Shown: piece after piece, positions 5,107 to 54,170 of the stretch
Numbering within the stretch: the first letter of the stretch is position 1
Layout: every line of letters begins with the position of its first letter
Assembly: GCF_020740795.1 (NCBI RefSeq)
Contig: NC_067295.1
Coordinates: 1,612,501 to 1,676,500, forward strand
Reading direction: 5' to 3'
Source: Apus apus
Taxonomy: Eukaryota > Chordata > Aves > Apodiformes > Apodidae
Length of the DNA stretch: 64,000 nucleotides
Translations under genes and position numbers: made by a program
Notes under the pieces: generated by a model
Database searches by the model: none
The model's input: the letters and a program-made list of their open reading frames with translations, nothing else
Told to the model about the DNA's origin: nothing

Positions 5107-8100
5107 TCACCACTTGATGTTAAACCCAGTGCTTGTCTTCTCCACGGCGTGGTACTGGGTGTGCAGAGCCCCTGCAGCCCCCTCCGAGCCTGGGCCCCCC
5201 AGCCACTGCTGGTACAGCTCCCTGACAGCCTGGCTGTCCTCTGGAGCTGCAGGCTGCACAGACTCATACAGCCTCTCCACCTGCTGCAGCTGGTCCTTGC
5301 TGGCTTCACCCTCTGCTCTGATCTGCCCTCCTCCATTCAAACAGCCTGGGTGCAACAGTGAGAAAAAACACCGGGTTTAGAAAGTCCTTCAGCTTTAACA
5401 GGAAAAAAACCAACCCACTACAGCCAATTTGCTCTGCACCTGCAACCAGTTACAGCAAGGCAGGCACCAGTATAACTGTGGTTTACTCCCCAGTTATCTC
5501 ACCCCAGCAGCCCTGGAGGGGAGATGGCTGTGAGTGGGTTGCTGAGGCAAGCTGGGACCTGCCAGGAGACAGAAGCACAGAGCAGGGAGCTTTGGCTCTT
5601 ATCTTGTGCCTCCAGAACATCCAGGTGGGAAGAGCCGTGGAGTCTCAGCTGAAGGTAAGATAAACACCCTGGGATGTGTTCTGGGTTTGCTGTTGGGGCA
5701 CTGTGAGTTGAGCTGTGTGTGTGCTCATGTCCTGGTTCTGAGCAGCCCCCCTGGGGAAGGGAGCAGCTCTCCCCAGGGCCAAGAGCAGCAGCTCAGTGTC
5801 CTTCCAGGAGCCTCTGCTCCCTGTGAGCTTGTCCAAAGAGAACCAGGAAGGAGAAAAAGGAGGGCTTGCACAAAGTGGAAGAGAATAAAATAGGTAGAAA
5901 GAGACTTTCTTCACCAGCTGTAGCAAACATCCTTTAAAAGCATAATAGTAAATTCTGTGTAACTTTAAAGGAAGGATCTCTTCATGTGCCAAAGAGCTCA
6001 GAAAACCAGGAGGTCCTTTGTAGCAATGAGGTCCCTGAGCAGCCTCACCTGAGGGGCAGGCCATGACCTCCACGTAGTGATAGGGTGACTTCCCTCGCTT
6101 CAGCTTCTGCACCAGGTTCTGGATGTTCCGGAACCCGTAAGCCAAAGCAAACTGGAGCAGGACTACTCCATCCCTCTCCAGTGTCACCTCCTGGAAGTCC
6201 TTGTTTCTGAGGAACAAGAGCAGAGAAAATGTCTTACCCAAATTAACTTCTATTTTAAACTTCAAAGAGCCCTGTGCTAGAACAAACTCTGAAATGTTCA
6301 GGAGAGCTGTCCTAGTTCACTCAGACCAAACAGATGAAGGAACCAGTTCACAATCTTTTTCCAATCCTGTTTGAAGACCTGCCACTCAAACCCAGTTTGC
6401 TGGAGAACACCTGTGTTGAATAAATCCTTAAAAGCTCAGCAAATGGAGTCTAAACAAAAGCTTCATTGTGACAGAGCTTTCTGAGTTGGCTGAAGCCAAC
6501 TTGTACATTAGTGAGGCCACTGAGGAGACCTTCACATTGTAGTGGGTCATAAAAACAGGGAGCAAACCATCAGGGAAGGCTTCTAGACCCCTAAAGTTAG
6601 TGGAAATACCTGTTCCTGGTAAAACAATAATTTGATTAATATCAAGTGTTTCATACTGAGACTCTGGGGGGTTGTTCTGAGAATCCTAAACAGACATGTT
6701 GCTATTTAGGGACAGAATTAATTACAAATAATATCCTAAGTGGGAAGAAGCTCAGCTGAGTGGGCCCCTCTGCCCAAACTCAGTGACTTGCTTTCTGTCT
6801 TGCCAGTTAAAACAGGGCCCTCAAGTCCTGAGACAAGATTTTCTGTCCTGTGATAGCCAGATTAGTAACACATCTGCTGCACTGGTCTGGCTGCAGGTGA
6901 GGAAGCCCAGCTCCATGTGAGCTCTTTCTTCCAAATTACTCTTAAAAACTGTCTGCAACTTGATACTGGGAAAATCTATCAGGCCAGGACAGTGTGTGGG
7001 TGGTGCAGGGGCTGGAGGTCTCCAAGGGAAAGGCTGCCCTGAGCTCTGGCTGATTTATTGCTCAGCAGCTGTGGGAGTGAGAAGCCAATTCCCATGGCTT
7101 GAAGTAAAATGTTTAACATTGCAAAGACAGTTTCAGCCCATGAGGAAGATAACAGCAGGGATGGAATTGCAACAGAAATAGTGCTCTCTGTAGGACTTGA
7201 GACTTCTTACTTTAAAGGTTTGTACTGAATTGTATCCACGTGAATTCCAAAGAGCTCCTTGGCTGCATGCTTGTAGATGTGTTCCAGGTAGCCCCCAGAC
7301 CCACCTCCAGAGTGGCTGGTGAGCTGCTCTCCTGCAGCACTGCTAAACCTGAGAGGGGAAAAAAGCAGCAGTTTTAGGGGGATCTTGGGTAAAACACAAC
7401 AGCCAGCACTAATGCAAAGGTCCAGGGGACTCAAAAGCAACAGAGAAGCCACAAGTTCCTTGGAGCTCCTGGCTTTTCCCTTCCTCCTGGGAGCCAACTA
7501 TTTGTAGCTGCTGGGCCCATCAGATTTAAGCCTGTGCTGCTCAGTGTCCTCTGGGGCAAGCTCAGTGGCAACACTGGCATGTGTCACTACAAGGCCTGAT
7601 CTGTGCACTGCCAACTTTGTGAGTCAAAAATACATTTGGGAATGCTTGAATTTCCAGGGTGACAAGCTGATGTGCATGTTTTGTTGGTTTTCTGTTCAAC
7701 ACCTCTGCAAAAACATCCTGGATTCCACCTAGAGATGGGAGGAGGGGAATGAGGCAGTGATGATAGGGGTCTGTGCAACCCTGGAGAATCTTCATTTCTT
7801 GGAGAATACAACCTAGCCTAGGTCTTGGCTCTGTCAAGAGACAACCCATCAGTGCTGAAACTTCTCTGCAACATCATCAAAGGCAGAGTTGACTCTTGAA
7901 AGCACTAGTTCTGTGTCAGGATGCATATTCTGCAACCAGCTGCTTTAGTTGTGGCTGCTGGGCTGTGAGAAGACTTCTGGGAGGTACCAGAGCTGTGAGC
8001 ACAAGCACAGGGAGGTGAAATTGCTGATGCTGTGGTTTCACATCCTCAAAGTTCTGTCACCAAGGGGAACCCACTTACTGATGCAAAAATGTTTGCTCCA

Positions 8101-32300: not shown

Positions 32301-35300
32301 GCTAATGTTTGTTTAGAAGTCCACACTCACTTGAGTTCATGTCTTTCTTCTCATCTCTTGCCTTCAGTTTTCTGATGTGCCTCTTTCTCTGGAGTGGAGC
32401 ATGATCTTCATGAATGGCCTGTGGGAGAAGATGTTGCGAGTTCCTGATATTGAGAGCCCACCTGTTTTGTCTCAGTGGGTCCATGGGGGGCTTCAGCCAT
32501 TCCTGGTCAACCCCAAGGTCCTTGCTTGCCTCCATGCCAAGAACGTCTCGTGTGAGACGTTCCGGAAGGTGTAAGTGCTGCACACAAACATTGCTTCAGT
32601 CCCATGTTGCTGAGGTAGGAAAGGGGCCCTTCCTCCAGCCTCCAAAACAAGGTGCTAAACCCTGTAAGCCCTCTGAACTGCTGGAGGCCCAGGAGGGGTT
32701 TCTGAGAAGCCCTCTCCAAGGGTCCATAACACACCTGCTGACCCTGTTCCCTGCTCCTCTGCCCCAGGCCGTGTGTGGGCACTGACCTGCTGGCACTCTG
32801 CTCCAGGGCAGGACCCAGGACTGGCAGTGCAGCCCCAGCTGCTGGTGGGGCTGGGGTGGGGGGCAGTCACTTTGATAGCCTTGAAAAGGGATGGGATTGA
32901 TAATGCCAGTCTTCAAGTAACAGCCCTTTTTGTGAGGATCCTGCCCTGCCAGGTTGGACTTCATCTGTGCATGAGATGTCTGCCTTTCTTGCCCATCTTC
33001 AGAGTGGCTGCCCTGAATGGCATATATTCTGACCTGCCAGAGGAGGACCAGAGGAAGCTTTACACTGGGATCAAGTACTATCTCACCCAGGATGGTAAAT
33101 TACTTGATTTTCTTTAAGAAACAACAGAATGCTTTAAGCCACTGGTGTCTGCTACAACAGTAGCTGTGACCTGTGACAGGACTGAGGCTCACAGGTACCT
33201 TCTTTTGGTGAGAATTTATATTGTCTCTTCATTGGAAATAGCCTGGGAATATGACAAGGGTAAGAGGTATCAGGAATAATTTCCCTGCCTGAAGGCTTCA
33301 TTAACCCAGGGTTTTATAAATCAGCACAGGCAGCCCTATGCTGACTTACACCCCATGCAAATGGCATTTACTGCTTTTGCTGTGAAGAGCAGAGCAGAGT
33401 TTGGTTCTGAGAGCTAAGAATTGAGTTCAGAAGTTAGCTCAGAAAGGGGAACCAGGTAAGACATTTCTCTGTCTCCAGGCAGTAGCTTGCATGCAAAAAA
33501 TGCCATGTCCTGCAGAAAGTTTGGGCAGGTTTGAAGGAGGAAGGGACTGGTGATGAAATATTTGGAGGGCTGAGCAAGGAGGAGGCACCTCTCCTGTCCC
33601 GTGTGCATTTGTAAAGTGGGTGCATAAACACATGGGCTTGAGCATAACGTGTGGTCAGAGAAACTTGGGGACTTCTCTGCTGGCTGAGTTCTCTGGCAGA
33701 CTGAAGCCTGTTTGGCGTTTGGGATTTTCCAGTCTCCACTGATTTCCTGGTACAGTGCAAGTCTCTAGTTTGAGGATGTCTCCCTGTTGTGCAGAATCAA
33801 AGCAGAAGTGCTACACTGGAGCTGCCCCAGGTCTGAAATCCACTGCTTGGTTTGAAAACTACCTTGGATCCTTTTTGGAACATGCTACTGTTGGAGACCT
33901 GCAGCTTTTTGGTGATGAACCAACAGTAAGTGCAGACCTTATTGTCTGAAGTGAGCTTTGTTCCTACTGTTCCAAGTAAGTGTCAGGATGGAATTATCCA
34001 TCTAAATATTTGTTGTGTGTGTGTTTTCCTGCATGTCAACACCCTCAGCTTCAGAAGTTTGCCAGGGATCCAGTGAATCTGCAGATGGTCAGCAACCTCT
34101 CCTTGCTGCAGGAGACAGCTGTGTACTACACCTCACTGCTGACCTCTGGACCTGGGTTTCCCTTATCAAGGTACAAGACCTGACCTGGTTTCCTGCCTGC
34201 CTGCTGATGTGCCATGGCACTGTGGCTGGGCAAGGGTTTGCTGAGTGGTGGTTCTGATGGCTGCTTCCATGAAACCTTGAGGCATTTTTCTGGTTCTCAA
34301 ATAGTTGCATTGCACTTGACCTTGGGAAGAGCCAGACCACAAGTTGCAAACTGTGGGAAATGACTGCCAGGCAGTGCCAGCCACCTGCTCATGGCCAACA
34401 CAACTAATGGCCAACAGGACAACTTGCATGGTTATGCTTGGCACAGCAGTGCTCTCTGTAAACAGGAGCTTCAGCATCCTTAGAGCTGAAATGAATCAGG
34501 GAAAGGTGGAAAAGATCATCCTTTGGGAAAAGAGGAAAGATCTGATGGAGCCACCATCCACCATGCTGGCAGCCTCTCCCCCTTGTCTCCCACCTGCAGG
34601 CTTCCAGACAGGTTTCTTTGCTACCTGAGCCCCTCTGCAGTGAGCAACCTGAGCAGAGATGATGCTTTGAGCTTGGCCCAGAGGATCAGTAAGAGCTGCC
34701 CACGGAACCTGACACGCAGAGGGACAACCAGGGAGACATCTCCCTTCTACCTGACAACAGATGAACTGCAGGTAATTGTCCAAGCCCAGGACTCAGTTGT
34801 TCATTTACCTGGACAGGATTTGTGAGGGTTGAGGACCAGCTCTTGTGCCTCCTGCTGTCTACACTCCTGCAGGCCATCTTGTGGTTTTGATTGTGGCATC
34901 TGGCTGGTGCTGCATGATCTGCAAGATCTCAGTGGGGAGAGGCAGTCCATCAGGAGGCTTCATCACACAAGTTTGAGGCAGAAGGTCCAGGGATTTAAGA
35001 CATCCTAAGGCCACGGGTTCCAATAGTCTCACCTCACTGATGCTCTGGCTTTCTTTTCTGCCCACGTGGGACCTTTCCAGGTTGCATCCTCTCTGGTGGG
35101 GAAGTTTGAGCACCTGAGTCCCGCGGTGCTGCGCGCCCTGGGGCAGGTGGTGGTGGGACTGTCCATACCTGACATCCAGAGCAGCATCAGTGACACAGAC
35201 CTTGAAGCGTCTCTTCCTGCCCTGGCTGAAGTTCACGGCTGGAATGCTGAGCAGTCCAGTGCTATTATCAACAAACTGCTGAGCTCTGGCTATCAGGTAC

Positions 35301-38300
35301 AGAGGATGAGGCCCAGAGATGCCCCCAGGTGCTGTTTGACCCCTCATGCACTCATTGCCTGCCTGCATCACCTTTCAGATCCGGGATGGACAGAGCCTGG
35401 CAGAGCTGGGGAGCTTGGTGGCTGGTCTGAACAGCAGCACGCTGAGAAGTCTGCCTTCAGGAGTCATCTTGGAAGCCATTCAGTTGCCTGAGTTTGTTCA
35501 GCAGGTGGTGACCCTGCCCCCTGCTCTGAAAATGACATTGGTGGAAAAGGTGAAGTTGCGGGGTTTGGTTTTGTTTTTCTCTTCAGGTGTCATCAGAGTC
35601 CCAGCTAAGAACACTGGTTCCCTGGGGCCAGGCTCTGACCCCAGCACACCCAGACAGCATTCCCTTGGGGGTGTTTGTCATTGCTAAGCAGAAGGCAGCA
35701 GGACAAACACCTCAAGTCCCTGTCACTGTGCCTGGGTAGATGTCCTTGGCTGCCAGCCGAGCCTCTTGGGGGCAAGAGCAGAAGGGGCAGTTGGTTTATG
35801 GGCTGATTCTAGAAACCACTCCCCACTGACTTGAAAAAAACACTCTCAGAGAAAGGATATTATCATGGTTTGGAGTGGGAGCATGTGAGAAGTGAAGGCA
35901 GCTTAGAAAGTCCCCTTTAGACTGCTCCTTCAGAAATGCACCGTTCCACCCTTCCCTGTGATGCTGTAGGATTTGGACACCTCTTTGCCTCTTTTCTTGC
36001 CATGACTTTATCCTCAGTGGCACGTGCAGCATCCGAGCCTGTTGTTCTTCAGCCTCCCTCTGGCAGGAAAGACTCTGCCCCGGGTCTGTCCTGGGGTGAT
36101 GGGGCTGCCAGGGCTCTGTGTTAGGGAAAGAACCTCTCCTTCACCAGAGGATTGTTCTGCAATGTGCCTGCAGCAAGTTGATAATGTTTTTTTGTGTTGG
36201 CAGAGAGGAAAGACTTGTCCCTCCTTTCTGGCTGGTTAAACATTTTTAGGGCACAAAGCCAGGAGGCAGAAAACTGGTAAGAGACCAAATTGTTCCCTTT
36301 CATCGGGACCCCAGGTATCAGCTCCAGGCAGCATTCCTGGTCTGATGATTGTGTCAAACAGAAAATATTTCATAGGGTTAGGTCTCCAAGAAGTGCCCAG
36401 GTGACCAGCAGGGGAATTTGCCTGGCTTCTTTCCAGTTGTTCTCCAGCAATTGTCTGTTTTAGCCACAGTGTTTGAATGACACGTCTGTGGGTTTTCTTG
36501 CAGATTTCCTCCAGTGTAAACCACCCTGGTGACCTGGTTAAACTTATCCCTGATGCCCTGGCCAGTTACATTCCAAAATCATTGCTTGTTTTTGGGGAAG
36601 AGAAGCCCAACATTCAGGATCTCAACAGGAAAATTTGGACCCGAGAGCAGGTAATACAGCAGCTTTTTGTGTCCTCCTCACCCTGCAGTGTCAGGCCTGG
36701 CCTGCACAAGAGCTGTGAGTCTGCTCTGCAAATCTGCCTGAAATGCAGGGGATGCTGCAGAAAAGCACAATGAACCCATGACACTCTGGCTTTGCTCCAC
36801 AGGCTGCTGTGTTTTTTGGTGATGTGATAAGGACAGAGCCTGACTTCAGCAGGTAGGGTTGTGTCCTCCCCTTCCATTCTCCATCTCTGTGTTTGCTTTC
36901 AGGGCAGTTTCCATGTTTCCCTTGCTACATGTGGCAGCCCCACCATACTCAATGCACAGCAGCAGATGGGAAATATCATGCACACCCAAACACAGCATTG
37001 AGACTTGCCAGAGTGTCAGCTGCAAAACATAACCCACAAGCCTCACTTTCTAAAGGCAGCTTTCTAAAATGATGCTGCTGGCTCAGACTGCACCTGGGAC
37101 CTTGCTTCTGACTGCCTCTGTGGAAGGTGCTTCTCACTGGAGAATGTCAGCCTTCCAAATGCAATTCCAAGGATTAAATTTAGCTGACCTAGATCTCTTG
37201 TCAGCTCTTGTATCTGAGGTGAAAAAGTATGAAAACCATGATACAAGTCTGGAAGAACAATGGAGTTGACATCAGTGTCCTGCTGATTTCACCACAGAAG
37301 CTTTTTCTATCAAAACCAACACAAGTTTCAAGGACTCCAAGCTGTGCTCAGTGATGAGGATCTGCACATCTCCATTCCACCTTCACCCTGTACTGAAAGC
37401 ACAGGCTGGTCTTGTAAATCAGGACACAGCAATGCCACTTGGGGTGGAGGTCCCTGCATTTCTACTGCCAGCACCAGGTTATGTTTATTTCACCAGTGAA
37501 GCTTCCTGAGCCCCCACATGGGTCAAAATCAGCAGTTTTAAGGGGATGGAGCTGTGAGAGGGTTAAGCTTAGAGAATGGGGGAGGTTTGTGTTGCTGTGT
37601 TGGTCATTAGACACGTGGGAGGTCAGCACTGGCTTTTCTCCTGAAGTCCTTGTCCTTCTGACTTGCCTTCTGTCCATGTCCAGGCTTTCCCAGTCAGTCC
37701 TCCAAGGCTTCACATGTGCAGCTGCTGATGAGGTGGGAGAAGAAAGATTTCAGGAGCTGGCCAAAGTGATGAAGAAGAAGAATGTCAAGCTGGGAGAAGA
37801 CCAGGTCAGTTTCTGTACTTCAAAATGCCCTGTTTGATCTTGTCATGAAGATAGAAACGAGGATTGCTCAGCAGGAGCAAAACCACTGGAACAAATGTCC
37901 TGGGTCTCCATCCCACAGTTCTGAATTTTTCCTAAAAGATAAGTCAAACCCCCATGGGCTGTGGGTGTCTCAGGAACCAAAACCTCCCATTTCTGTCTTT
38001 TTTTCTTCCTCTTATTTTGGAGCAGAGTGAAATCTTTAATATTAATTTAATTTTTTTCTGATGTTTGCATGCTGCTTTCTTTCTTTGATGTGTCCTTTCA
38101 GCTGAGCTGCTTAGTGAAGATGGTGACACTGCATGGGATTCCCAAGGATTTAGACAGCTATCCTAAAGACCTGCTGCTGTTTTTAAGGTAACTGTGCTAT
38201 GGTGTCCATGTCGTTGCCTTAGTACCTAGTGGGAAGAAGAGCCTTTGTTTCCATCCTAGCTGGCAGTGACTGGTTCATTCATGTTTGATGTGTATTTCAA

Positions 38301-41300: not shown

Positions 41301-44300
41301 TCCACGTTAATTTTGCAAAGAGCAGAAGTTGATGAGCACAGGCACAATAACCAGTGTTCCCAGCAGTAATGATGGTCTTTCCACAGACTTACCCTGATGG
41401 GTATCCTGACAGTCTGCTCCCCAAACTGGGCCCTCTCATTGACTTGTTGACCCCTGAGGACTTTTCTAAATTGAAGATAACTTCAGCTGACACCTTGGCT
41501 GCCCTGCTAGGAAATGAACTCTCGAATGACCAGGTGGGAATTTGGGTTGGCTTTCCTGCCCTTGTTTGCTTCCTGGTTTTAGGAGCTGCTGGGTTAGGAC
41601 TAGCTCAGGGGCTTCAGAGATGATTGGCCCATCCCTGAGGTCCAAACAAAGAGATTTGAAATGATTCAATTTTATTTTTATAATGATTGCATTTGTTGTT
41701 TGTTGGTTTTGTTTTTTTTTCCTTTGGGGAATGAAAAATTCTGGTTCAAGTTAACTTTGTGTTTCCAGGCTTCTGTAATAATCAAACTTTATGTTGACTT
41801 GGGAAATGCCTTGAATGCCACTGCCCTGAGGGCAATTGGGACCAGATACTTGTGCCTTCTAAATGCAACTGAGCTGAATAGGATTGACCCCAACAACCTG
41901 AAGTGAGTCCAATACTGTGGTGATGCTCTTGGCTTCTTGCAAAAGCACTTTCCCATCAGCAACTGCAGTTTCCTTTTCTGTCCGCTCAGGGCAAGTAGGT
42001 CTAGAAAGAAACTTAGTACCTGCTGTGTGTCCAGTTTTACAAGCCTGCAGCTCTCCATCCTGCCAGGAAGGGCTCAGGTTTGCAATCCAGCTCCCTCTGT
42101 GGCACCTCAGCTGACAACAGATGTGGTCTGCATGCATGCTTTGATCTAGAAGCAAGAGAGAGTTAATTCAATTCAATTTGAATTATTTTGAAAGACTGCT
42201 AAATGAAATCATTAAATAACTGTATCTTTGCAAGCACATAAACTCCTCATGCACCAGCAGAGCCATCATAACTGAGAAGATGTATCGTTTTGAGCAGGAG
42301 ACTGAGCTGGAATTTTTTTTTCCCCTCAGCTTCTCTCCAGACCTCTTCTGTGTATTAGGGGGAGGGGTTAACCTGTCCTGTGTAGAGAATCCCAGATAGA
42401 CTAGTCCAAAATTTGTTCATGCTGAAGGAAATAACAACTTCTCTCTCCTTCAATCTTCATTTTTCTGCAGACTGGCATCTCTGAATCCTTCAGCCTGTTC
42501 ACAGCTTACAAAAGACATCTTATATGCTAAAGCAAAACGTGCTTTCTCAGACCGGCTCAACTCATCTGCCTATTATCAGCTCATTCTGCCTTACTTGGGT
42601 ATGCAAAGGAACAGGCTGCTGTGGGGAAAGAGGGCTCAGCCAAAAGCTGCAGAGCTGTCAGACACCATCTAAGATGTGGGCGTTTTCAGAGGGAAGTTGT
42701 TACAAGTTTTAGAGAGTTTGGGTCTTTACCAACTTGTAGATGGAATAAATTATTCTTGAAAGATTCTCTACCTGACTTGATGTTGCCCAGATCAGCTGTG
42801 AGGCTGTCACAGGGAAAATCCACCTCATGACTTCTGGGATGGGTAAGATCTGCTAGATCCATGAGAAGTCAAGCTGCTATTGCTTAACTTTTGTCTCGCA
42901 GCCCTTCTCCATGGTGCCAGACATAGACTTTATTTTTTTCCTCTGTCAAGCCAATAATTGTTTCACAGCCTGATTAACTCTTCTTACCCCTCTGTCAGGC
43001 ATCTGGCACTGTCCCAGGTGGGTTTGCTGGCTGACATAATAACACCTCCCAGCAAAAATGAAGCAGCATCCATAGATTTTGCAGTTGGAACTCATTCAGT
43101 TAGAAGTCCCAACCTAATACATTTTGGAGACATCATTCTAGCTCCAGCTTATCCAGATACTCAGCATTGCTCACCTGGGGGCTCTCCATGCATGGATTAA
43201 CTTTCTCTCTTTGCTCCCAGGGGGTGCTCCTGTTGGGGATCTCAGAGCTCTAAGCAAGCACCACGTGAACATGAATGTTGATACTTTGGTGAAGTTAAGA
43301 AGAGACTCTCTGATGGTGAGCAGAATCTTGCAGTCCTTTGACTCCTTGCCTTCCTTTCATGCTGAGTAGTTGGTTTTGGTCACATTGGTGCAAGCCAGAA
43401 ATCACTCCATCAAATTCAGAATGGTGCTAGACCAGGGGGGAGCGGAGAATTGTCCTGAAACTCCTTCAAAATGCTAAGCCAGTCTTGCTGGGAGATTTCT
43501 TTAGAGTAGGCTCTCACAGCAGGAGTGGCAGGAGCAGGGGCCAAGTGTCCACTAGACAACAGTCCACAGCAACGTGACAAATCTTCTAACAATAACACCA
43601 TCAGTTTGGAAGAAAGCCCCGTGATTTGGGCAGGGACTTTGGGCTTGGGTGTAGCAGACTTGTCATCAGAGGACAACAGAAATAGGCTTGGTGGAACCAT
43701 TGTGTTCTCTCCTCTAATCTAAGGCAAGAGTTTCCCGTCTGAAACCACTCACCAGGAATTTGTCTTCCTGGTTCTTCACACTTTTGCTAACAGAAACCAC
43801 AGCAGTTCCTTGATCAGAGGGTATTGTTTCCATTCCTGCTTTTACATCTGTAATTCTTGCTCTTTGTTTTCTCTTAGAGCCTGACACCTTCTGAGGTTAA
43901 GGGCTTGCTGGGGATAAATCTTGGTGATCTGGTGAGCTGGCAGGACAAGTCTCCCATCTGGGAGTGGATCCACATGCAGAAACAATCAGAATTGGATAAG
44001 CTGGACATTGGGCTCACTGGGGGAATACCAGAAGGCTACATCAACATTGTCACACCCAAATTTGTGTGTATGTATCAAGCTAGGACCTCTGATTTATATT
44101 TTGGGGGGGTTACAGCAAGGAGAAAAACTGCCTTGTGAAAGCAATGCTGGCAAAGGGCTGAGGTCCTGCCTCAGCAGGGCTTGTGCCAAGGCCCTGGGGA
44201 GTCCTGCCTGCTGCTCTTGTGCCCAGAGTGCAGAAGCTGTTGACCTGGGCTGCTGCAGACCCCTTGCAGTGGCACTTGTCACTGCCCATCCACCCAGCCC

Positions 44301-44566
44301 ATGACAGCACACTGGGCAGTGCTCAGCTCCTCCCTGGTCACCACAGGTAGAAAGCCCTCAGGAGAAAGCCAAGGATCTCCCCTGGATGTGACATCAAGAG
44401 ATGTTCTCCTCCATGAGGCAATGGTTCAGTCGTTGATTTCTTTGCACTGATGCCCCCTTTTTTTCCTCTAGCACCATCCTCAGCCTCCCTGGGTCCTGTG
44501 GCCATGGAATTCCACCTCCTGCCTGCTCTGCTCCTCAGTTTCCTGATGATGTCTGTCTTGTCTTGA
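26361..44566 (+). CDS. MSLN: MSLN, mesothelin (long, N-terminally extended form)
   Basis: Twenty-eight coding exons: 26361-26403, 29267-29307, 29849-29870, 29990-30017, 30739-30823, 31793-31954, 32368-32570, 33003-33094, 33795-33925, 34049-34170, 34600-34771, 35081-35296, 35379-35549, 36504-36650, 36803-36852, 37684-37804, 38102-38187, 38693-38822, 38937-39127, 39908-39998, 40487-40598, 40831-41015, 41387-41533, 41769-41902, 42471-42598, 43221-43315, 43878-44067, 44472-44566. They sum to 3390 nt (1129 aa) with every phase matching. A signal peptide (GLGFLLLLGWQAAAA) opens the protein. The furin-type site RHKR (residues 800-803) directly precedes the mesothelin core, which begins CPAGKEI. The C-terminus is a GPI-type hydrophobic tail (LLPALLLSFLMM) with no basic stop. 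The core and the block around GFTCAAADEVGEER match the mesothelin family, which forms superhelical repeats at the cell surface. Residues 1 to about 545 have no counterpart in MSLNL; length and GPI signal also recall otoancorin. Synteny and the core favour MSLN. The first four small exons are the least certain. Confidence 0.88.
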
Positions 44567-45590: not shown

Positions 45591-45596
45591 TTTATT
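45591..45596 (-). terminator. Candidate MSLNL poly(A) signal
   Basis: TTTATT on the plus strand is AATAAA for the minus-strand MSLNL transcript, 584 bases beyond its stop. MSLN and MSLNL converge here, so their 3' ends may overlap if MSLN uses the distal hexamer at 45614. Confidence 0.45.
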
Positions 45597-46179
45597 CTAT
45601 AGCTTTGTACAGTAATAAAGATAAATTATCTCCAATTGATCATCCCTCTAGCAAGGTTTGTGTACACATCTTGATCAAAAATCTCCTAAGTTCATGAAAC
45701 AAGTTAAATATGATTGTGTGGATCTCTGAGCTTCCAGACTGTGGTGCTGGGCCCTGTTCTGCTGCTTCTGCAGTGGCAAGTAACACAGATCCCTGAGTTG
45801 TCCCACTGGTCCAGCAGGTCCCAGTGGGACTGCTTAGAAGTAAAATAACTCCCAGTGCAAGTAGGGCTGGCAGGACTGACCCCTCTGCCAGCAGTGATGC
45901 CTGCTCAGAGCAGGCACTGGTGCTGGTAACTGTGTTACACAGAGCAACTAGGTAGTAAGTACCTGGTGGGTGCTTTGGGCTGGAAAAACACCTGTCCTCC
46001 TTTCACTGCCCAGCCTCAGGAGTAATAAGGAAATCCTGTGCTGGTATCAAGTGGGCAAACTCTCTTCCTTTGCTGGGTTTCTGCTTTCCAGCAGGGAATT
46101 GACCAGCACAGATGTTTTGCAGGATGGTGGAAATGAAAGGCAGGATCCCGTGGGTGAGGAGCTGGAGGTGGTGGCCATG

Positions 46180-49100
46180 TCAGAGGAGCCCCCAGAGAAG
46201 GGAGCTTCCCAAGGCTGCCACCAGGATGGGCACGAGGCAGGAGGAGGGTCTGGATCCTGATCCTAGGTGGAGAAGAGAAATGAGATAGCACTGGATTCTC
46301 CAAACACATGTGAGCTGTCAGGGCAGCAGAGCTGCTTTGGGACTCGGGTACCTGGAGGATCCACCTGTCAGGACAACCCCTAGATGTCACCTGGCCATGA
46401 ATAGCGAGCAGGACTGAGTCTGTCCTTGCTTTCCCCAGTGTAAAGCAGGAATCAATCTGTTTGAATCATCCAAGCCACGGGTGTAGCTCTGTCGGGTTAA
46501 ACAGCTCCTGGTCCTAGGGCTGCTGCAGCAGCGCCTGCTGGGGGACGCTGGGCAGGCCAGATCCCTGCCTTGTGACCAGCAGGCACTGCCTTAACAGAAT
46601 TGTTCCAGCTTCCTGCAGGGTGGTTGAGGGGTTCTGTGTGTGATGAGACATCTCGAGGTGCAGCTGCAGGGGGGCTGCAGGCAGTGTGCTGCAGACCCAG
46701 GGGCTGTAACACCCTGGAGAGACCCTTTGTCTAGCCAGGAGCTACTTGGGGTTTCTTGTGGACAACAGCACACCAGTACTGAGTCTGCCCAGGAACAAGG
46801 TGGATCAGCTGCTCCTTGGGGGTCAAGACTTCTGCCCCACCATCAGTTCCTAAGCCTTTCCGGACTCTGAGCATTTGTGTCTTACCAGCTTCAGGCACCA
46901 CGTGGATGTATCCATCAGGTGTTGGTCTCGGGGTCTCTGGCACGGCTGTGGGTGTCTTTTCAGTGGTCTCACTGCTGGTGGTGGTGGAAGAAGGGCTGGG
47001 AGGTGCTGGAGGGGCACTGGTCGTGCAAGGCAATGTTGTAGTCTCGGCCACTGAGGAGACAACACTCTTCTGGGTGGAGATGGTGGAGCTGGGAATCAAG
47101 GTGGGCTTGTGAGGAGAGAGGTTAATTTCTGTGGCTGTGGAGGTGGCGGGTGGAGAGGTGGAGTTAGGGGCAGGGGTGCTGGGAGGGTTGTGGGTGCTCA
47201 GGGTGATGGTGCTATGGGTGGCAGGAGTGGGGTGGGTGGTACCCCCAGGTGCTGGAGGGCTCATGGACACCAAGGGTGTGCTGGTGTTGTGGAAGGTAAC
47301 AGCTGGGTTAGTACCAACACTGGGGGTGGTGGTCCCATGAGCAGCGGGTGGGACGGAGCTGGGAGAGGTGGTGTTGGACTTGACAGCAGTGAGGAGGGTG
47401 GTGAGGAGGGTGGCACCAGGAGGGGTGGCCTTACTTGAGCTGGCAGACTGGTGTGTGGAGCATGGGATGACAGAGCCTGTAGTGAGAGCAGGTTGGATGG
47501 AGGTGGGAGCAGGTTGGGTGGCAGAGAAGGGAGCAGGTTGGGTGGTGGAGGTGGGAGCAGGTTGGGTGGCAGAGAAGGGAGCAGGTTGGGTGGTGGAGGT
47601 GGGAGCAGGTTGGGTGGCAGAGAAGGGAGCAGGTTGGGTGGCAGAGAAGGGAGCAGGTTGGGTGGCAGAGAAGGGAGCAGGTTGGGTGGAGGTGGGAGCA
47701 GGTTGGGTGGCAGAGAAGGGAGCAGGTTGGGTGGAGGTGGGAGCAGGTTGGGTGGTGGAGGTGGGAGCAGGTTGAGTGGAGGTGGGAGCAGGTTGGGTGG
47801 AGGTGGGAGCAGGTTGGGTGGTGGAGGTGGGAGCAGGCTGAGTGGCAGAGAAGGGAGCAGGCTGAGTGGAGGTGGGAGCAGGTTGGGTGGTGGAGGTGGG
47901 AGCAGGTTGGGTGGAGGTGGGAGCAGGTTGGGTGGAGGTGGGAGCAGGACCCCCAGCAGCACTGGGGGAAGCACTGGAAATGCTGTCTGGGGGGGTTGGG
48001 CTGAGCGTGCTTGGGGTGGGGGCCTCAGAGGGGCTGGTGCTTGAATTAGAGGTAGGGTGACTGCTCATGCCAACAGGGATGGGGGCAGTGGTGAGGGTGG
48101 TGGGCATGGGGACAAGGTCTGTGGTGCTGGCTGAGGCAGTGGGGTGAGGAGGGGTGTGAGTCCCTGTGGGGTTGGGCTCCACCATCCCCCCTTGCAGGCC
48201 AATTCCCAGGATACAGTCCAGCTCCTGCTGGGACTGTCTCTTCACCCAGTCCACCACCACCGTCTCGTTTTCAGCTGCCTTCAGGTAATGGAGGTTTTTC
48301 CCAAGCAAATTTTTCACATCCATGATGCTGAGTTTCTGCAACACAAACACATCATCTTTGCTCATCCTCAGCACCACCACCAAGTGCTTTTCTAATGGGA
48401 CTGCAGAGCAAGTCCTAACTTCCAAAAGAAAGTTTAAAAGGGTAAAGAAACAGGGCCTTGGTGATGTGATGGGGCTGTGGCCTCTCCCCACAGTCAGCCC
48501 TGCAGATTCCCAGGGAGGTACCTGCAGTTCCTTGGGATTTAGGTTAAGGAAGGTGCCCATGTCCATGTTTATGGCAGTGCCTCTCTTAGCCAAGCTTTTC
48601 AGGTCATCTGCTGGAGCTCCACCTTGAAGAAAGTATAGGGGACACCTAGACACGTGCAAACACTGCCAGCACTTTTGGAGGGGCTCTGGAGACTGCCAGG
48701 TGTGTCTCTAGGGTGGCTGAACCCCCCCGGCAGAAGAAGGGGTGTCCCACCTCCATTGCTGTGGGAAGGAAGGTGAAGGCTGAAGCACCTACCCAGGTAT
48801 GGCCAAATGTGGCAGTAATAGACACTGGTGGACTCAGCCTTGTCACCAAAGACCTCATGGGCTTTTCTGTAGAGCTGGTCCTTCTTCGTTTGAGAGCAGG
48901 AAGAAATGTTTAACTGCCCAGCAGTCCTGGGAAGAGAGAAGGTCACAGGTTAGTGCTGGGGGCACCACCCCAACCACAGGTAAAGCCCTTTTGTTGGTGG
49001 GAGGAGACAAGTGGACTGTCCCTGCCTGCAATGCTGGGGGCTCAGGAGTTGGGAGCAGGACAGGGATCCCATTTTGCTGCCTGCAAGTGGGCACAGCCAA

Positions 49101-52100
49101 AACAGAGGTGGGAGCCTGCATCCCACCATCCACTTCCCCTGTGGCCCCAAGGGCCTCATAGGATGGAAAACATCCCTAAAAAGTTTCTTACCTGATGGAT
49201 TCTAGAGGTATTTTATCGATCTGCTCCTCCTGCAGATTACACAGGTTTCTCCCCCCAATTGTCTGGAGCAAGGGCCCCGTCAAGGTGGAGCCCATCAAGG
49301 TGCCCCCCAGGGCCCTGTACCTTTTCAGCAGCTGGTTGACCTGGGAAACACAGTTCAGGTGGTTGCAGGCAGGGAAGGCAGATGCTCCCAGGAGAAATGC
49401 CTGTGCTGCAAGGCTGCCGTGCTGCCCTCGGGCAACACCTGAGCTGGGCTCTGGCACCCAGTGGTCCCAGTTTGGGGTCACCAGCGCCTGAACCCCTCTG
49501 CTGCCATGGGTTTACCTGGGCAGGGTTCCACTGGCCATCTGAGGGGTCAAGCAGGGCCAGGAGTGTGTCACTGGAGGTCACCATCCACTGGCTGATCTCC
49601 TTCGGCGTGTACAGGCGGGACAGTGTCCCGAGCTCCTTCAGCTGCTTCTCCGGGATCCCCGAGGGGTAAATCTGTAGGGCCAGGCCGGAGGGGTGGAGAA
49701 GAGGGTCAGGGGAGGGAAACGAAGGCAGAAGTGGGCACAAAGGACCTGCTCAGGTGCCTTCATCCCCATGGCTGGTGATGCCCATTCCCGCAGCTGGTCT
49801 CGCCCATCCCGGAGCGTGCCCGTGCCAGCAGGGGGGCTGTGCCAGGGCTCCTGCCCTGTGTCACCCCTCACCTGTGACAGCTTTCTTTTCAGGACCCTGA
49901 GGTACGTCGTGGGGAGGGGCTGCTCAGACAGCAGCTCCAGGTTTGCTTTTAAAACCTCATCGCTCAGGCACAGGTTGAACTCCTCGATGCTGTATGTGAG
50001 GACTAACAAGGTGGAGATGGTGCTGGCTGTGATGGGGCTGGATGAGCAGCCTGTGGGCAGGAAGGACATGTCAGGTGTTTCTTCCCTTCCCACCTTGGCC
50101 CTGATCCTGCCCCGTGGCCCCAGAAAAGCTCCAGTGGAGGCACATGGAATCAGGGACTGTGAATCATCCTCCCAGCCCCTGGCTCCCCAGCCTGTGAAGG
50201 AACCTTATTTGCTTTCATTCCTTAAAGTTACTCCTGAGGAGCCTGCTGATGTTTCTGCAGACCTTGTGGGCTTTGTGCTGTTCAAGGCAACAAGAAATGC
50301 TTGGGCAAGGTGAACCCACATGAGTATCCTCTGGTCTTGCAGCATCCTCCCCTGCTCAACTCCAGGAGTTTTCTCCTCTGCTCCAGCTCATTCCTGGCTG
50401 CTCCTGCCGTATTTCTGCTCCCAGGTAAGAGCAAACACCCCAACAGGCTGTAGGGGTGTTTCCCCCCAACTGCCCAGTGGCTTTATAGGAATCCCACAGT
50501 TTTCTGCCCAGTCCTGTCCATCTTTCTGGGGGCACACAAATGCCAATCATTCCAGGAACATTTTGCCCCCCAAGAGCTCTGAACTGCTCTAGGATGGCCA
50601 CGGTGAAGGGAGACACTCACCTTCTGTGGTCCTCTTCAGCCTGGGTCGAGACAAAGCCACTGCTGCTGGGAAGGCCCTGAGGAGGGTCAGGGACTTTTCC
50701 CACTGGGAATGTCCCTGGCTGCTGTAAGTGGCTGCGATTGTCCTGCCAAAAGCCTCCCGTGTTGCCTGTAGGGGGGCAGAGGGTGCTGGGTCCTGCAGCC
50801 TTAGGGGGCTGAAGGGCAGCTCCCCTCGAGCTCTCGAGGAGGGCACTTACCTTGGCCACCAAGCTCAGTGTGGTCTGGTTCAAAGCCAGCACGAGCGGCC
50901 CCAAACTTTGTAGAGTCTGTAAATCCCAGCTGGAAGGGTCCCTGTGGAGGTCAGGAGAAGGTTGGGTGTTGGTCCAGCTGGTGGGTCCACCACCCTGCCC
51001 ACGCACCGCCTGCCCCATAAGGGCAGGTGGAGGCTCCTTACCCATACACTGTGCCACCCCCAAGGAGCACAGCATTGAGGGCGTCCTGCTGGGCCCCTGT
51101 CAGCTCTGGGCAGAGCTTCAGGTTCTCCAGGACACTGGGGTCTGAGGCTGTGATGGTCTCAGGCTCCATGTCACACACCAGTGCCCCAAGGCTGCTGAGC
51201 TGCTCAGGATGCAAGTGGCTGCTCCTCACCCCCTGGGAGAGACAATCCAGCCCTCGTACAAGCACACGGTGAGGGGTGCAGGGGACCCTGGCCACCCCCC
51301 AGCTCTTCTCCCCCTCACCAGGCAGGTCAGTGCCCGTTGCAGCAGCTCCCGCCGCTGGACTGAGCCCTTGGGCAGCAGGTCCAGGTTCCCATGGGAAGCA
51401 CGGGTGTAAAAGGCTCCACAGGTCCCACTGTCCACCTCGGCCAAACTGTGGGGAGCAAGAGCCAGCATGGAGAGGAGGAACGGGGTGAAGGGCCCCTCAT
51501 CTCCACCAGAAGGTCTGTAATGTTGCTTTTGGGGATATATAGGGAGAGTCCTTTTAAGTGATCACTCCTTTCTGAGCAATGAGCTGCTGAGCTGCTCAGG
51601 GCTGGGGAGTCTCCTCTCACCAGGAGAGGACATCTTGGACATAGGATGGGAGCCACCCAACTCCATGCATCCCACGCCATGCCCAGCAAGGCCCTATCCT
51701 TGGAGAGAAGCGGGGTGAGGAGAGAACCAGGGGGTCTGCAGGGCTGGAAATGTCCCGTGTGGGTCTGAGGGTGCCCGCAGACACAGGTGATTTTTGTAAC
51801 ACTCTCCTCCTCAGAGAGCTCCACGTGCCCTGGGGTGTGCCAGGGCCCCTGGATGAAGTGATTCAGCCCCAAAACCACAGCCGTGTGCTGCCCTTGACTC
51901 AAAGAAGAGCAGCAGGTCGGGCGGGTACCTGCCGAAATCAGCCGTCAGGTTCCTGGCAGAGAGCAGGCGGGCCAGGCAGGAGAGCTGGGCAGAGAGAGGC
52001 AGGGCTTGCCAATGCCGAGGTGCCGAGAGCCCCTTTGCCACCTCCCCGCCGGGCTCTGCGGGGTGTGCAGCCCCTCCCCTGCCCACCTGGACACGGCTCA

Positions 52101-54170
52101 GCTCCGCTGGGTTGTTTTGCAGCCCCCGGGCCAAGGCCAGGCGGGCAGCGGCGGGCAGGGGGCGGGCCGGGAGGCACGGGAACCCCCGCAGGACCCCGGC
52201 CCAGAGGCTGCGGGGAGGAGACAGGGCTGCAGCTCATCGTCAGCTTTAGCTCCCCAGCACCCCGTGGAGGTCAAGCCTGCTCATTCCCTTGGGAACTTCC
52301 CCCTTCATCCCAACCACGACTGCGTGAGGTAAGCGGGAATACCACGGGGATGTCATGAAGCTGTCCCCTGATGCCAGCGGTGGGGACAAAGGGCATGTCC
52401 TGTCAGCCGGGAGGGTGCCCGTCCCCGTGGCCAGGGTGGTGGCAGAGGTGCCCACCATCCCCTGGGAGCTGGGTGAGGGAGGAGCCACTGGAGCCTGGAT
52501 TTCGGCTCGGGGGAGGCTCTGGTTACACCCGAGTCAGCCCCGCGAAAGGGAAGGAAGCGCTCGGTGTGTTTGTGCTGCGGCAGCCCCGGCAGCTGCGGCC
52601 CCAGCTCCAGAACCGGCTGCTCAAGACTCTAAATCCTCTCCGGCCCAAGTCACCTGTCACAGCGGCCGTGACACGGATGCGGAGAGAAACGCAACATCCA
52701 CCCACGCCTGCCCGGCCCCCCGGGCCCCCCCAGGGACCCCCCGCTTGTCTGGCACCCTTGTCCTGGGGGTGGCACTTACTCAGGGTGTTGCTCGGCGGCA
52801 GACAGGACAGCTCCGATGATCAGGGTGGCCTGAGGAGGAGGATGGGGGGACGCTCAGCCCCGCCAGGAGCACAGGGATTTAAACCCCCAGGGATGGAGCG
52901 GGGAACGGGATCCGAGCCGGCCGGTGCTCCCGGTGGCTGCTGGCGGCTGAGAGCTGCCGCAGCCCCGAGCCTGCCCTGGCTCACGGGCAGGGACAAAAGC
53001 CACCACAGCTACTCTCAGGAGTGGGGACCCTTCAACAGGGGGTCTGTCCCAGCTCCCCCACAGCTGGGGGGACCTGGGGTGCCCATCAGGTCTAGGGTCC
53101 CAGCCCTTGGCTTGCGAGCAGGGCAGGGACACTGCCCGACAGCGGGTGAGCGAGGGAGGGGACGGGAGGGGACAGGGTCTGCTGAGGGGAGCAGAGGACT
53201 GGGGACCCACAGCAGCTCTGCCGTGTTCCAGCAAAGCCCTGGTGTACTGGGAGGCACTGGAGCAGCCGGGGGGGACTCACCACTGCCACTTTCGCCAGGT
53301 CTGTGGAGAAACCTGCAAGGAAGCGGGAGGGGGTTGTGAAACATCCATGCTAGGGAATGTATGGAATGTCTGTGCTATGAACATCCATGCTATGAACATC
53401 CGTGCTATGGGGTGTCCGTGCTATGGGGTGTCCATGCTATGGGGTGTCCATGCTATGGAACGTCTGTGCTATCCATGACTGTATGTACAGGCAACTGGGG
53501 GCTGTTCTAAAGCAGGTTCATGTTTAAATTCTGGGAAGGGCCTTTTCTTAGTTTTAAAATTGAAATTAATTTATTTATCAATTTATTAAATGTAAATTAA
53601 TGTAAATTAATTGATTACTTTTTACTTTTTAATTCAACATGATTACATATTATTTAAATAACTATAATATAGCTCATAATATAATTAACTATTTAAAAGC
53701 TAAATATAATTATCATTGTGTTGATAAATATTTATTCTACAATATTATTTAATTAAATTATTTTAATATTTTAAATTTAATACCATTTTTCTTAATTGAA
53801 TAATATTTGGTAAATGCTGGTGACCACCCTGCATCCCCCTGTGCTGCCCTGCAGCCTCTGCCAGCCCTGACAACCCGGGGTGCCTCGGGATGGGTTTGCA
53901 GGACAAAAAAAGTGAGGAATCTGCCCCTGGAAAAGTGTTTTCATGCAGATTTCTAACACGGTGCTGGCAGCAGCTGGGCAAGCTCCCTGTGGATGCTGGT
54001 GGGAGCAGGAGGCAGTGCCCAGGCAGTGCCAAAGCCAAGAGGGTTGGGAATGAAAAGCAGGGTGGGCTGGAGCATCCCCAGTGCTGGGGGGTCCTGGGCA
54101 GGATCAGCTTGAGGGGGACAAGGGGTAACTCACGGAGGCAGAGAGAAGTGGCTGGGGCTGCCCACACCAT
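46180..54170 (-). CDS. MSLNL: MSLNL, mesothelin-like protein with mucin-like domain
   Basis: Sixteen coding exons on the minus strand: 54134-54170, 53281-53312, 52780-52829, 52087-52207, 51899-51984, 51319-51445, 51042-51232, 50851-50941, 50621-50765, 49872-50050, 49516-49671, 49192-49340, 48793-48926, 48522-48622, 46886-48335, 46180-46262. They total 3132 nt (1043 aa) with consistent phases. A signal peptide with a long n-region (core VAVATLIIGAVLSA, residues 21-34) is built from exons 1-3. The MPF-like part (LRGFPCLPARPL, PPDLLLFF, GTCGAFYTRA) ends at a furin-type site RPRLKR (285-290). The mesothelin core follows (GCSSSPIT, IYPSGIP, GGAPADDLKSL). Residues from about 584 to 1000 form a Thr/Pro/Ser-rich mucin-like insert. 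The last exon codes a GPI-type tail (LVPILVAALGSSLLWGLL). The exon 5 donor (GA|GTCAAG) is weak but its phase fits. The protein is probably a heavily O-glycosylated surface protein; its partner is unknown. Confidence 0.87.
47487..47948 (-). repeat. MSLNL: Coding VNTR in MSLNL (21/24-bp units)
   Basis: About 20 tandem units encode QPAPTST, QPAPTSTT or QPAPFSAT on the minus strand. Units are 21 or 24 bp, always multiples of three, and two sequence types alternate irregularly (seven are of the PFSAT type). The array lies inside exon 15, within the wider Thr/Pro/Ser-rich segment. Pro/Thr/Ser-rich tandem repeats are typical mucin O-glycosylation platforms. Confidence 0.95.
53346..53478. repeat. 15/16-bp minisatellite in MSLNL intron 1
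   Basis: Tandem units of the form gctatggggtgtccat or gctatgaacatccat occur about six to eight times, starting roughly 35 bp upstream of MSLNL exon 2 in transcript orientation. They are non-coding. Confidence 0.85.
53540..53815. repeat. AT-rich low-complexity island
   Basis: About 275 bp are almost entirely A and T (ttaaattattttaatatttt and similar), with repeated taaattaat-type words, inside an otherwise GC-rich gene. The tract lies in MSLNL intron 1. No coding potential was seen. Confidence 0.9.

Follow-up and report, generated by a model that had tools for sequence, protein, structure and literature searches.

The mesothelin superfamily has been proposed to consist of superhelical lectins that bind cell-surface glycoproteins (PMC2628672). 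Human mesothelin (MSLN) binds the mucin MUC16; it is ordered up to G585, and most of its major shedding sites lie within residues 582–598 (PMC10035497). In birds, MSLNL is listed in a seminal-foam proteome of quail (PMC12853081), among the genes differing between the HW and LW quail lines (PMC4587967), among the top regulated genes of Riemerella-infected ducks (PMC11123779), and in tables of chicken tracheal vesicles (PMC8780788). It is oesophagus-associated in chicken, and the authors of that comparison state that the other species lack a homologue of the gene (PMC12665336). A study of the ostrich eggshell found mesothelin and cites MSLNL expression in chicken eggshell membranes (PMC5039028), and a protein similar to mesothelin, which may be MSLN, was described from the zebra finch eggshell (PMC4666066). 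Several of these MSLNL records come from mucosal, secretory, or inflamed tissues; a mucin-like protein that sits at the surface or is shed would be at home there, although this is no test of such a role. The published passages on MSLNL or mesothelin in quail, duck, chicken, ostrich, and zebra finch do not mention the insert described here, and a mesothelin-family member with a mucin-like stalk was not found in the open literature among the matches listed. Database gene predictions may already contain the insert stretch.

The MSLNL gene and the neighboring MSLN

The MSLNL gene studied here lies in a window of 64 kb, that is, the whole stretch of DNA analyzed. Judged from the sequence of this one genome, its product is probably (about 0.8) a GPI-anchored, mesothelin-type superhelical protein, the solenoid of which stands on a mucin-like stalk of approximately 421 residues. 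The names MSLN and MSLNL follow the initial annotation and the arrangement of the human genes. The model of MSLNL comprises 13 exons on the minus strand (52207 to 46180), which could be chained in frame without a stop. All 12 introns start with GT and end with AG, and their phases are compatible; the donor at 51899 is weak (score −3.1; splice scores throughout stem from an approximate matrix). The features of the gene outside its long exon, which is number 12 in the chain, are as follows.

48522..52207, minus strand: eleven upstream exons, phases consistent and stop-free
52207–52087, 51984–51899, 51445–51319, 51232–51042, 50941–50851, 50765–50621, minus strand: upstream exons 1 to 6
50050–49872, 49671–49516, 49340–49192, 48926–48793, 48622–48522, minus strand: upstream exons 7 to 11
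50631..50648, minus strand: RPRLKR, a furin-type site judged by eye from the sequence
46180..46262, minus strand: last coding exon, GSGSRPSSCLVPILVAALGSSLLWGLL followed by the stop, a GPI-type signal; strongest acceptor of the chain (12.1), phase matching
45591..45596, minus strand: AATAAA, likely polyadenylation signal, from the sequence

The 543 residues up to the motif GLQGG match the Pfam Mesothelin family (PF06060) with an E-value of 3.9e-93 over profile positions 65–583 of 624. Human mesothelin PDB chains are matched by residues 271–543 of the same query (2.7e-41, 8fsl), the end of the match being given by construction, as the query was cut at GLQGG. RPRLKR stands between the MPF-like and the mesothelin-like halves and presumably corresponds to the furin-type site at which human MPF and mesothelin are cleaved apart. 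A convincing N-terminal exon with a signal peptide was not found in two scans, which was counted against the model: strict limits gave no candidate and looser ones 13 weak candidates. One of these weak candidates, at 53399, overlaps a short tandem array with a 16-nt unit (53360–53472) upstream of the modeled exons.

On the plus strand, eight frames between 38,051 and 44,135 are colinear with the MSLNL protein (E 1.5e-10 to 0.25); the comparison, cut off at E 10, additionally gave weaker matches that are not colinear. By this colinearity, the frames are assigned to MSLN, which lies tail to tail with MSLNL. Two of its exons are needed for the comparison.

43878..44067, plus strand: MSLN counterpart of the long MSLNL exon, 190 nt, phase 0 in and 1 out, without the insert
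44472..44566, plus strand: last coding exon of MSLN with a GPI-type tail, ending in MEFHLLPALLLSFLMMSVLS and the stop

Farther upstream on the same strand (34490–36770), open frames resemble mesothelin-type helical repeats by eye, and one of them aligns with MSLNL at 55% over 20 residues (E 1.0); Pfam gave no match for four frames of this region at E 0.05. The N-terminus of MSLN may be longer here than in human MSLN. Elsewhere in the window, the minus strand at 5648–6316 matches the C-terminal domain of the iron-only hydrogenase large subunit (1.6e-09), as would be expected of CIAO3/NARFL, a neighbor of MSLN in human.

Position and boundaries of the insert

The long exon of MSLNL is flanked by GTTGCAG on its 5′ side and by GTAAGA on its 3′ side. 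It was divided into the following parts.

46886..48335, minus strand: long exon, 1450 nt, phase 0 in and 1 out, AG acceptor, GTAAGA donor, open frame of 483 codons
48186..48335, minus strand: codons 1–50, last helices of the mesothelin solenoid, ending in GLQGG (Pfam Mesothelin, 2.3e-09)
46923..48185, minus strand: Thr/Pro/Ser-rich, mucin-like insert of 421 residues between GLQGG and TPDGY
47946..48185, minus strand: non-repeated 5′ part of the insert, 80 codons (period-3 chi-square 43.9)
47484..47945, minus strand: tandem-repeat core of the insert, 154 codons, with the units PAPTSTQ, PAPTSTTQ, and PAPFSATQ (TRF arrays within 47481–47948)
46923..47483, minus strand: non-repeated 3′ part of the insert, 187 codons (period-3 chi-square 83.8)
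46886..46922, minus strand: juxtamembrane segment TPDGYIHVVPEA, counterpart of human MSLN IPNGY...

The initial annotation had described a mucin-like insertion in this exon relative to the exon of MSLN, and its coordinates, strand, exon lengths (1450 and 190 nt), phases (0 in and 1 out in both genes), and homologous ends all agree with our results. The two exons align at 42.3% over 52 columns (blastp, E 2.6e-06). An insertion of exactly 1260 nt, or 420 codons, had also been stated: the difference between the exons is indeed 1260 nt, whereas the insert itself measures 421 residues (1263 nt), with 50 residues up to GG in MSLNL versus 49 in MSLN and 12 versus 14 after the insert point. Since the phases are equal at both exon ends, any difference in length must be a multiple of three, and the exact number of codons is therefore no separate evidence. 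The splice sites had been regarded as untouched by the insertion, and they are intact at both ends of the long exon.

The borders of the insert were located by several comparisons. When the whole 483-residue exon was searched, the Pfam Mesothelin match covered residues 2–51 and stopped there. The proposed alignment of the tails, IPEGYINIV of MSLN with TPDGYIHVV of MSLNL, holds with a BLOSUM62 score of 33, against 11 for the runner-up position within the exon; in a search with the MSLN 9-mer, none of 2000 shuffles of insert plus tail reached 33. Human mesothelin aligns through PDGYIH once the insert is left out of the MSLNL query (1.2e-19), and across the insert point GLQGG-TPDGYIH of MSLNL stands opposite GLQGG-IPNGYLV of the human protein. 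Together with the order limit at G585 and the positions of the human shedding sites, the human alignment and the tail fit place the insert where the solenoid gives way to the shedding segment. A structure model of the long exon built from one sequence, which is weak evidence, contained helices at residues 4–18, 24–33, 36–49, and 306–319 and was otherwise unstructured (mean pLDDT 41.4); within the insert, this model gave block means of 33–46 and 306–319 as the sole helix.

Composition, repeats, and coding character

In the insert (n = 421), Thr (97 residues, 23.0%), Pro (91, 21.6%), and Ser (69, 16.4%) prevail, followed by Ala (51); Pro, Thr, and Ser together account for 257 of the 421 residues, which qualifies it as a long Pro/Thr/Ser-rich (PTS) region of the mucin kind. 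There are two Cys, 15 charged residues, and five N-X-S/T sequons. Mucin PTS domains are commonly defined by at least 40% S+T and at least 5% P per 100 residues. The S+T content of the insert is 39.4% overall and ranges from 33 to 46 in windows of 100 residues, 134 of 322 such windows passing both limits; this was weighed against the stalk. Neither a VWD nor a SEA domain was detected by Pfam in the long exon or in the 543 residues before the insert; the exon gave the Mesothelin match alone, and the preceding residues gave Mesothelin and a sub-threshold match to NdhM (E 0.22). As VWD and SEA are absent from these scanned parts, the protein is called mucin-like rather than classed among the mucins.

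When divided at each PAP motif, the core of the insert falls into 18 units, all of them 21 or 24 nt long, and an end piece of 30 nt. Units of one type are nearly identical, which points to recent expansion or homogenization and to possible length polymorphism. Between the 18 full units, compared within length classes and leaving aside the 18 nt that open the array and the 30 nt that close it, pS was 0.126 and pN 0.078; this is no clear signal of purifying selection and was counted against the stalk. No trace of the 24-nt unit was found in the flanks of 80 and 187 codons, where the observed value was reached by 43 of 60 and 33 of 60 codon shuffles, respectively. Much of the domain thus seems to predate the near-identical core, which lends some weight to the view that the stalk was already present in ancestral MSLNL, or in the common ancestor of MSLN and MSLNL, and was lost in MSLN rather than grown here. 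The insert is, however, absent at the equivalent point from the MSLN sequences compared, namely MSLN of this window and the human MSLN PDB chains, a weak argument as it comes from MSLN sequences only. We regard an ancestral stalk as possible, though clearly the less probable course.

A different explanation treats the insert as a minisatellite-bearing piece of the exon, for the most part removed by splicing or left untranslated, the open frame of which would be a by-product of the C-rich composition. For the repeat core this explanation of the frame is accepted: the core remained open in all 4000 composition resamples and consequently says little on coding, and long open stretches are present at the core in all three minus frames. 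For the flanks a pure composition effect was rejected, because the joined non-repeated flanks were open in only 43 of 4000 resamples, none of which reached the observed S+T content, and because their bases are unevenly distributed over the codon positions to a degree (chi-square values given above) that none of 2000 resamples attained for either flank. Four non-coding controls from the MSLNL gene yielded chi-square values of 13.6, 6.5, 3.7, and 7.1, with 34, 356, 681, and 308 of 1000 resamples as high, respectively. In all six frames of the 64 kb, 127,102 windows of 150 codons were inspected, of which 3825 had no stop codon; 239 of the stop-free windows were PTS-like, with a minimum of 37% S+T and of 15% P, limits chosen after the composition of the insert was known. 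All 239 lie in one frame at 46863–48224. With windows of 80 codons, 282 were stop-free and PTS-like by the same limits, again all in the frame and place of the insert.

Removal of the insert by splicing is conceivable on paper. The acceptor of the long exon is the weakest of the 13-exon chain (5.5 versus 5.9–12.1), which was likewise counted against the stalk, and 11 of the 44 internal donor–acceptor pairs listed (both sites scoring at least 3 and at least 70 nt apart) are in frame. One weak in-frame cryptic intron (48245–47070, 1176 nt; donor 3.8, acceptor 7.4) could take out most of the insert along with the last 20 residues of the fold. Against such splicing, the only internal donors scoring at least 4 among GT sites, the donor type scored, are 47435 (8.3) and 46973 (4.5), both downstream of the repeats. 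The former (GCTCAA|GTAAGG, minus strand) is in phase with the last exon, and its use could give rise to an isoform that lacks the PDGY segment together with the 3′ part of the stalk. Taken with the flank results, this makes an untranslated or largely excised minisatellite improbable, and we favor a translated insert that is presumably densely O-glycosylated.

Membrane anchor, proposed function, and related systems

The exon starting at 46262 ends in SCLVPILVAALGSSLLWGLL and the stop, which by eye and by hydropathy is a GPI-type tail. The GPI anchor put forward for MSLNL in the initial annotation gains support from this predicted tail and from the phase-compatible acceptor scoring 12.1. Phase-compatible acceptors for the last exon were compared down to a score of 2. 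Among them, a last exon at 45929–45640 would end the protein with a membrane-spanning stretch and a tail of approximately 60 residues. It has the highest 17-residue hydrophobicity among the listed alternatives (2.30 versus 2.02), but its acceptor reaches just 5.0, the stop at the exon of 46262 follows directly on the hydrophobic tail as in GPI signals, and with that exon in use 45929–45640 falls in the 3′ UTR. This ending was dropped in favor of the GPI-type tail, and a membrane-spanning rather than GPI-anchored MSLNL appears very unlikely. As an observation in its own right, the likely 3′ UTR of MSLNL contains at 45929–45640 (minus strand) a hydrophobic open frame that is phase-compatible with the long exon, either an alternative membrane-spanning ending or a product of chance.

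The order of mesothelin fold, PTS-rich stretch, PDGY segment, and GPI-type tail exon, proposed initially, is thus supported by Pfam, alignment, and the exon chain as a predicted architecture. The mechanism suggested here derives from the position and composition of the insert. Placed where the ordered domain passes into the flexible juxtamembrane segment, a stalk would allow reach and glycan coat to change, leaving fold and splice sites undisturbed. With approximately 0.25 nm per residue, as is usual for mucins, 421 residues would extend, very roughly, to a rod of 100 nm. Such a rod could act as a brush-like spacer that holds the glycoprotein-binding head out of a dense glycocalyx and could provide the cells with a mucin-like coat. 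Cleavage in the juxtamembrane segment would free the head with its stalk attached. It is a tentative and rather doubtful extension that birds, or some of them, turned a mesothelin-type glycoprotein binder into a sheddable, GPI-anchored mucin outside the VWD and SEA classes, with a fast-changing core, perhaps variable in length between individuals, and a role at mucosal and reproductive surfaces. In this reading, since human mesothelin binds MUC16, apparently via MUC16 glycans, the head of MSLNL might even bind glycans on the five N-glycosylation sequons of its own stalk, in cis or on neighboring molecules.

If translated, the insert would be a mucin-like domain within a coding exon of a known cell-surface binding protein, for which neither fold nor anchor nor splicing need be disturbed, and it would add a kind of protein that domain-based mucin inventories miss. 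Neighboring paralogues with and without a stalk in the same exon offer a clean test case for the origin of mucin-like proteins.

Mesothelin, both human and that of the window, is among the closest known counterparts: it shares with MSLNL the Mesothelin domain, the PxGY juxtamembrane segment, the GPI-type tail, and a furin-type site, and in the window the phases of the counterpart exons are the same. In contrast to MSLNL, it has no PTS-rich insert between GLxGG and PxGY. CD55/DAF and GPIb-alpha resemble MSLNL in carrying a folded binding head off the membrane on an O-glycosylated Ser/Thr/Pro-rich stalk, which in GPIb-alpha is repeat-polymorphic; their heads are unrelated to mesothelin, and GPIb-alpha is membrane-spanning. 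To our knowledge, MUC7 contains no mesothelin domain. Like MSLNL, MUC7 has tandem PTS repeats inside one coding exon, but it is a salivary mucin with a repeat unit of 69 nt instead of 21 or 24 nt (PMC4997351). The chicken mucin inventory also searched a bird genome for PTS domains; its authors state that mucins without VWD and SEA domains could not be identified effectively, and the word mesothelin is absent from its main text (PMC1552070), so that a stalked MSLNL could have been missed there. PTS repeats within an exon and binding heads on mucin-like stalks are known already; what is plausibly new is a member of the mesothelin family with such a stalk.
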